Shown here: in pieces, positions 8,730 to 10,094 of the stretch
How the letters are laid out: each line of letters begins with the position of its first letter
Numbering within the stretch: position 1 is the first letter of the stretch
NCBI GenBank assembly: GCA_025774935.1
Contig: JALGZK010000001.1
Coordinates: 336,266-400,265, forward strand
Direction of reading: 5' to 3'
DNA: 64,000 nt
From: a bacterium
GTDB lineage: Bacteria > Joyebacterota > Joyebacteria > Joyebacterales > Joyebacteraceae
Position numbers and translations under genes: made by a program
The notes under the pieces: generated by a model
The model's database searches: none
Told to the model about the DNA's origin: nothing
What the model saw: only the letters and a program-made list of their open reading frames with translations

Positions 8730-9014
8730 GCGCCGCTTCGACGAGGAACGGTTGCATCGTCCAGCTCGCGCGCGGGAAGTACGCTGTCCTGAGCCGAGCG
8801 AGACATGGTCTTTGCTATGAAAGCTCCCCGGGTTGCAGCTTGCCAGAAGGGCGAAGTTAGGAGTGGACAACTCCTGGAACCCACTCTAGGTTGATTGTTG
8901 CCTCACATGTCGGCTACCGCGTTGCGCGGCGTTGCTTTCCGCAGTCGCGCGTCGCGGTTTTTGTATGAAGGGTGTGGTTGGCGGGAGTCCACCCGCGCAA
9001 ACCCCGGAGGACCG
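8730..9014 (+). other. Intergenic region without a gene
   Basis: 285 bp between the beta-helix lipoprotein and the KamA-like gene. It is less GC-rich than its surroundings in places. It holds a small hairpin (AGGAGT at 8859-8864 pairing with ACTCCT at 8870-8875). I find no convincing promoter of standard spacing, no conserved coding frame and no known riboswitch motif. Confidence 0.5.
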
Positions 9015-10094
9015 ATGGCGCGGAAGGAAGAGTGGCAGCTGGAGCTTGGACGGTCGGTGACGCGAGCCGCGGACCTTGACCGAGTCCTGAAGCTCAGCGA
9101 CGACGAGAAGGCGGCGATCGAGGAACTCCGCGACGCCTACCCCATGAAGATCACGCGTCACTACCTCGACCTCATCGACCCCGGGCGTCCTGACGATCCG
9201 CTCAGGAAGCTCGTCGTCCCCTCGCCTCAGGAGCTCCGTCACAGGCATGGCGAAGAGGACGACGACGTCCACGCCGACGAGGCGCAGTACCAGCCCTGCC
9301 CGGGCATCATACACAGATATCCTGGGAAGCTCCTGCTCATTCCGACCCTGGGCTGCCCGGCGCACTGCCGGTTCTGCTTCCGCAAGGGCAGGAAGGTGCA
9401 GCACCTGAGCCACGAGGAGGGCGAGCGAGCACTCAGCTATATCCGCGGGAACGAGTCGATCCGCGATGTCATCATCACCGGCGGGGAGCCCTTCATTCTG
9501 CCGGACGAGGAGGTTCACTACTGGGTCTCGTCGGTGCGCGCGATCGACCACGTGCAGATCATCCGTGTTACGACGAGGACACCGATCTACCTGCCGTCCC
9601 GAATTACCGACACGCTGGTCGGCATCCTGGCTGAGAACCAGCCCATCTTCGTCACGGTCTCGTTCGTGCACCCGAGAGAGATCACGCCCGAGGTCGAGAG
9701 GGCGCTCGGCAAGCTCTCGGACGCCGGGATCGTCATGCTCCAGCAGGGCCCGATACTGCGGGGGATCAACGACGATCCCGAGGTCCTGAAGGAGATGTAC
9801 GAGAAGCTCGCCTCCCTGCGCGTGCTGCCGTATTACGCCATCTGGGGCATCCACGCGCCTGGTGCGGAGCACTTCCTGGTCGACGGCCACCGCGCGAGCG
9901 AGATCATGGGAGCCCTCGAGAACAAGACCTCCGGCTTCTGCGTGCCTCATCTCATCACGATCGCCAAGGGCGACAAGGTGCGAATGATGGGCTGGTCTCC
10001 CGAGAAGGAGATGTACCACCTGGCGCGCAGGGAGCCCCCTTCCGCGGGCGAACCAGTGCGACTCCACCCGCACCCGGAGACGCGGCACAAGTAG
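9015..10094 (+). CDS. KamA-like radical SAM protein lacking the PLP-binding lysine region
   Basis: A 359-residue radical SAM protein of the lysine 2,3-aminomutase (KamA/EpmB) family. The cluster motif is C114PAHC118RFC121, with GGEP at 156-159 and the family segment TSGFCVP at 305-311. In characterised lysine 2,3-aminomutases the next segment carries DAPGGGGK with the PLP-binding lysine. Here the sequence goes straight from PHLITIA to KGDKVRMMGW, so about 20 residues with that lysine and a substrate aspartate are absent. The other substrate aspartate (in YYIYxCD) aligns with Ile in YYAIWGIH. The C-terminal zinc cysteines are also missing. A PLP-dependent aminomutase function is therefore unlikely. 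The ATG has GGAGG upstream. Confidence 0.8.
   Translation: MARKEEWQLELGRSVTRAADLDRVLKLSDDEKAAIEELRDAYPMKITRHYLDLIDPGRPDDPLRKLVVPSPQELRHRHGEEDDDVHADEAQYQPCPGIIHRYPGKLLLIPTLGCPAHCRFCFRKGRKVQHLSHEEGERALSYIRGNESIRDVIITGGEPFILPDEEVHYWVSSVRAIDHVQIIRVTTRTPIYLPSRITDTLVGILAENQPIFVTVSFVHPREITPEVERALGKLSDAGIVMLQQGPILRGINDDPEVLKEMYEKLASLRVLPYYAIWGIHAPGAEHFLVDGHRASEIMGALENKTSGFCVPHLITIAKGDKVRMMGWSPEKEMYHLARREPPSAGEPVRLHPHPETRHK

Follow-up and report, generated by a model that had tools for sequence, protein, structure and literature searches.

The gene at positions 9015 to 10094 of the window, by which we mean the whole 64,000-nucleotide stretch of DNA analysed here, encodes a homologue of the lysine 2,3-aminomutases, and it raises the question of which reaction such a protein performs when the residues that grip the lysine side chain are gone. 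An original prediction, made from the sequence, had gone further and proposed that the PLP machinery was deleted as well. The source genome (3.24 Mb, 96% complete) has Candidatus Eisenbacteria MAGs as its nearest named relatives, and the gene is a plus-strand open reading frame that begins with the ATG at 9015, follows a Shine-Dalgarno sequence (GGAGG, 9006-9010) and encodes 359 amino acids.

9015..10094, plus strand: KamA-family radical SAM protein, predicted PLP-dependent non-lysine 2,3-aminomutase (translation, TIGR00238 score above cut-off, AF2 model, fold match to 2A5H)
9354..9377, plus strand: CPAHCRFC, with the three cysteines (CX3CX2C; C114, C118, C121) that bind the radical SAM [4Fe-4S] cluster, invariant in all 110 aligned homologues

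TIGR00238 (KamA family radical SAM protein) was the sole NCBIfam model to score the protein above its cut-off (250.2 versus 199.2 bits). At 228-256 bits the protein fell below every equivalog cut-off for the lysine, glutamate and arginine aminomutases and for EpmB, including those of TIGR03820 for lysine 2,3-aminomutase (256 versus 525), TIGR04368 for glutamate 2,3-aminomutase (256 versus 650) and TIGR03821 for EpmB (231 versus 369). The expectation that it would be annotated as lysine 2,3-aminomutase was thus mistaken, since under NCBI's rules a score of 256 against 525 bits leads to the name "KamA family radical SAM protein". The radical SAM half is intact, as had been stated, with CPAHCRFC, GGEP and the family landmark TSGFCVP all present in the translation. 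In a sequence search of the PDB the only match was 2A5H, the lysine 2,3-aminomutase of C. subterminale, which was also the best Foldseek match (TM 0.86, rmsd 1.6) of an AlphaFold model (AF2) built from 110 sequences with a pLDDT of 88.6; this model was used instead of one built from 13 close orthologues, which reached a pLDDT of 63. The cluster motif and the LAM-like barrel both place the protein in the KamA family.

Whether the protein could still use PLP depends on the following residues.

9381..9383, plus strand: R123, equivalent of lysine 2,3-aminomutase R134 (invariant in alignment A2; residue map)
9975..9977, plus strand: K321, counterpart of the PLP lysine K337, its loop being shorter by two residues (profile-profile alignment with three KamA groups; clade-invariant)

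The segment bearing the PLP lysine had been described as missing; it was found to be shortened, the glycine loop DAPGGGGK being represented by IAKGDK, two residues fewer, with the lysine (K321) retained. In hhalign comparisons K321 fell on the PLP lysine of 59 canonical KamA sequences when the glycine loop took a gap of two residues, and did so gap-free against six proteins of a short-loop D-T-P-x-G-K class and eleven of an SHxxGK[IV]E class. One MAFFT run (A2) conflicted with these alignments, placing the gap beyond the lysine column and pairing R323 with the PLP lysine, so that the assignment of K321 to the PLP aldimine position rests on the weight of the sequence alignments and not on structure; the K321 region of the AlphaFold model is modest in confidence (78 and 57 for the blocks of residues 311-330). 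In our judgement the gap-free alignments with the short-loop classes resolve the conflict in favour of K321 as the predicted PLP lysine. Some proteins of the D-T-P-x-G-K type retain canonical flanks (VLDTPHGKIPLNPQY in L089; also L132 and L149), which indicates that the loop can shed two residues and yet hold its lysine.

These alignments bear directly on the possibility that the protein is a PLP-independent radical SAM enzyme with another substrate, in which the KamA scaffold was reused after PLP had been lost and K321 is structural. The shortened loop, S216 where other members keep His or Gln, and the change of Y290 to I276 would agree with such a history, whereas the invariance of K321 and its alignment with the PLP lysine, the same short loop in the three homologues with canonical flanks, and the retention of R101-Y102 and R123 speak against it, and we regard it as unlikely. 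With K321, the HRY motif (R101, Y102) and the carboxylate-binding R123 all in place, neither the statement that known PLP chemistry is closed to the protein nor the suggestion of PLP-free action on a protein or a cofactor found support. An alignment with a lysine at the PLP position, such as was obtained here, is an outcome that the original prediction had itself named as refuting it, and the short loop serves as a warning against labelling such homologues PLP-less.

The substrate side of the pocket has changed at two further positions.

9849..9851, plus strand: I279, replacing D293, the first lysine-binding aspartate (clade-invariant Ile; Ile in 0/97 other KamA proteins; residue map)
9960..9962, plus strand: I316, replacing D330, the second lysine-binding aspartate (clade-invariant Ile; Ile in 0/97 other KamA proteins; residue map)

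In lysine 2,3-aminomutase D293 and D330 bind the side-chain ammonium of the substrate. Isoleucine at the first of these positions had been noted before; the second has been replaced in the same way, and the Ile/Ile pair is unique among about 110 homologues. With both lysine-binding aspartates replaced and a score of 256 versus 525 bits, the view that the protein is not a lysine 2,3-aminomutase was upheld. In that enzyme the substrate carboxylate is bound by R134. Y102, R119, R123 and R184 do not vary across 110 KamA sequences, and R196, H100 and Q244 hardly do. Because both acidic residues that would hold an ammonium group are Ile, we expect a substrate whose side chain carries no charge and is small or hydrophobic; the neutralised side-chain site, together with a retained carboxylate-binding arginine, suggests that the substrate is an uncharged amino acid in free form. 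Judged from these residues, it seems somewhat probable that the protein is a PLP-dependent radical aminomutase that acts on an uncharged amino acid other than lysine. Other pocket residues also differ from those of 2A5H (Y290 to I276, Q291 to W277, C292 to G278, H230 to S216 and N257 to Q243), so that the geometry around PLP or substrate may differ more than is assumed here.

The two aspartate positions are known to govern substrate choice. Glutamate 2,3-aminomutase carries Lys and Asn in place of the two specificity aspartates (PMC3965090), where the window protein has Ile and Ile. In engineered alanine 2,3-aminomutases the key mutation held in common replaces an aspartate that sits in the active site, between PLP and SAM (D331G / D339H; PMC9850924). 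The spacing of this residue to the PLP lysine suggests that it corresponds to D330, and on that equivalence the window protein, with I316, shares the replacement.

The short-loop classes differ at the D293 position in their own ways. SHxxGK[IV]E takes the place of DAPGGGGK in L047, L046, L049, L076, L153, L169 and others, which form one fully supported clade; this class mostly has Arg at the D293 position, which suggests an acidic substrate side chain, and within the phylum it occurs in genome G007 and also in G009 and G015, both without the window-type gene. Short-loop proteins of the D-T-P-x-G-K type (L089, L132, L134, L137, L149, L071 and L184) have Gln, His or Glu at that position and are probably yet another substrate class.

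Single-copy orthologues with 63-90% identity were found in 17/20 genomes of the phylum and in 12 of the 13 that are near-complete; the gene is absent from G009 (near-complete) and from G012 and G015 (both incomplete), all three of which have panB and panC. The next matches in a search of 386 genomes were KamA proteins of other lineages, about 35% identical, and in a tree of 131 sequences the window clade forms one side of a fully supported branch with a long stem. That the family might hold a conserved clade with a constant neighbourhood, a possibility raised with the original prediction, was borne out, and in terms of sequence the clade is a new, clade-specific KamA variant which has kept the PLP lysine and lost lysine specificity. 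An assembly frameshift as the cause of the short loop was ruled out, because 13 full-length orthologues from different assemblies share one C-terminus (ITIA[RK]GDKVRMMGWSP). The clade's gene is also present, at 66% identity, in L032 (SZXY01000204.1), a contig that is filed under a Chlorobium sp. MAG and is probably mis-binned or from a related lineage; elsewhere, in G215:C151, G316:C21 and G284:C1, an in-frame stop codon (TGA or TAA) interrupts the matching region of a KamA homologue.

The gene order is constant and on one strand: argF, dapF, dapA, an optional beta-helix lipoprotein, the KamA-family gene, a FIST protein, a GAF/histidine kinase/receiver hybrid and dapB. This synteny with dapF, dapA and dapB, together with the kinship to EpmB, the EF-P beta-lysylation protein (231 bits), would suit an enzyme that still makes beta-lysine, or uses an intermediate of the diaminopimelate pathway, in a rearranged pocket, for EF-P modification or as an osmolyte, its place among the dap genes reflecting its role. 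Both lysine-binding aspartates are, on the other side, Ile in every clade member, the score lies far below the AblA and EpmB equivalog cut-offs, and the gaps to dapA, of at least 400 bp, indicate that the two genes do not form one operon; we hold this explanation to be quite unlikely. Gaps of about 200-670 bp flank the gene on either side across the phylum (about 290 bp upstream and 440 bp downstream in the window), so that it probably has its own transcript. Of the claim that it is monocistronic with its own terminator, the first part is therefore plausible; as to the second, a strong hairpin lies at the 3' end, and the scan gave no U-tract.

The upstream region holds three conserved features.

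8839-8862, plus strand: additional conserved boxes, CTTGCCA and AAnTTAGGA, immediately 5' of the promoter-like pair (alignment of 10 upstream regions)
8864..8892, plus strand: conserved promoter-like pair TGGACA-17-TAnnnT (alignment of 10 upstream regions; not called by the consensus scan)
8909..8962, plus strand: leader hairpin GUCGGCU[A/G]CCGCG...CGCGG with a U-run after it, a putative attenuator (covariation; covariance model search)

The hairpin and U-run lie about 50-90 nt ahead of the start codon, and the promoter-like pair precedes them in every orthologue for which 5' sequence exists. Covariation in the leader stem was 0.41, versus 0.22 in shuffled alignments, with two-sided changes in 6/15 pairs, and 94.6% of the stem cells could pair, versus 83.5% for shuffles and no more than 62% for slid controls. 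A covariance model recovered the hairpin upstream of every orthologue for which 5' sequence was available and found nothing comparable at any other place in 355 kb. The leader looks like a candidate for transcription attenuation of a single gene. A known riboswitch was ruled out by a search of Rfam that gave no match to the leader, as was a canonical T-box, since the predicted transcript ahead of the ACCGCG that the leader holds is only about 20-25 nt.

Which uncharged amino acid the enzyme would act on was approached through the supply of beta-alanine. All 20 genomes of the phylum have panB and panC, which are not adjacent to the KamA-family gene, and none of the 20 has panD (pyruvoyl aspartate decarboxylase) or a match above cut-off to PF00282 (group II PLP decarboxylases), in searches whose positive controls matched in known genomes. 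PF00282 takes in the archaeal and Vibrio-type aspartate decarboxylases, and the phylum seems to be without a standard route to beta-alanine. What makes alanine a candidate is that the phylum carries panB and panC but no known beta-alanine-forming decarboxylase, and we tentatively put the protein forward as a natural L-alanine 2,3-aminomutase that would convert L-alanine to beta-alanine; as a single substrate alanine is our best guess, though less likely than not. Absence of panD does not by itself prove alanine chemistry, for of the roughly 311 genomes elsewhere that carry panC, 70 (about 22%) lack panD and 28 (9%) lack both panD and PF00282, a base rate that is not rare and that weakens the argument. 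Among the panC-positive genomes outside the phylum, KamA homologues were not clearly enriched in those without panD or PF00282.

Beta-alanine may also come from the breakdown of uracil, as shown in Rhizobium etli (PMC7142369). Dihydropyrimidinase scored above cut-off in 13/20 genomes of the phylum, with no strong full-length match in G001, G014, G016 or G018, and the three genomes without the KamA-family gene (G009, G012 and G015; n=3) all carry a match, full or fragment. Complete absence of beta-alanine routes was thus ruled out, and uracil could be a source in most genomes. In the genome of the window, a dihydropyrimidinase-like protein above the TIGR02033 cut-off (L191:5492-6928, G000:C2) is isolated among genes for FG-GAP/beta-propeller surface proteins and genes without a family match.

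Were beta-alanine obtained from uracil or by uptake, the enzyme might instead rearrange a larger neutral amino acid, such as leucine, valine or isoleucine, supplying a beta-amino acid for some other product. The spread of dihydropyrimidinase leaves room for this, and Ile/Ile with W277 suggests a hydrophobic pocket. Nearby, however, there is no biosynthetic cluster to use such a product, the near-universal, core-gene spread suggests a housekeeping one, and dihydropyrimidinase is isolated in the genome of the window and without a strong full-length match in the four genomes named above; we consider this alternative possible but rather unlikely. The single-copy state of the gene, its presence in 12/13 near-complete genomes and its dap neighbourhood also speak for our main reading, a PLP-dependent aminomutase of an uncharged amino acid.

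In the reaction that we infer for an alanine aminomutase, the [4Fe-4S] cluster would cleave SAM, and PLP, held on K321 as an internal aldimine, would move to the alpha-amino group of the free amino acid, the carboxylate of which would be seated on R123. The 5'-deoxyadenosyl radical would then abstract a beta hydrogen, and the amino group would pass from C2 to C3 via an azacyclopropylcarbinyl radical, turning L-alanine into beta-alanine that would feed pantothenate and CoA.

To our knowledge, alanine 2,3-aminomutase has so far been made only by engineering lysine enzymes. If the alanine reading is true, a whole bacterial phylum makes the beta-alanine of CoA by radical isomerisation of alanine and not by decarboxylation of aspartate, with a leader of the terminator type; a natural alanine enzyme would close a gap in the way lineages lacking panD make CoA, and would offer a ready-made biocatalyst for producing beta-alanine and 3-hydroxypropionate. 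Should the substrate not be alanine, the Ile/Ile clade, whose members are probably PLP-dependent aminomutases of a neutral amino acid, is still a clean and testable class of substrate specificity.

Among known systems, the window protein has in common with lysine 2,3-aminomutase (AblA/KamA, C. subterminale, PDB 2A5H) the fold (TM 0.86), CX3CX2C, HRY, the arginine R134, the PLP lysine and TSGxCVP, and differs from it in the change of D293 and D330 to Ile, a loop two residues shorter, Y290I, Q291W, H230S and a short C-terminus (359 versus 416 amino acids in total). Glutamate 2,3-aminomutase (TIGR04368) resembles it in that both specificity aspartates are changed, and its profile scores the protein equally (256 bits), far below the cut-off of 650; the residues differ, Lys and Asn in that enzyme (PMC3965090) and Ile and Ile here. 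The alanine 2,3-aminomutases that Cargill engineered from the LAM of B. subtilis and of P. gingivalis have likewise lost the Asp between PLP and SAM, taken as the D330 site (PMC9850924), but they are man-made point mutants of long-loop lysine enzymes, whereas the window clade is natural and is also without D293. The short-loop KamA classes of other phyla (D-T-P-x-G-K and SHxxGK[IV]E) share the loop two residues shorter and the kept PLP lysine; unlike the window clade, they have Gln/His/Glu or mostly Arg at the D293 position, and they form separate clades in the tree.
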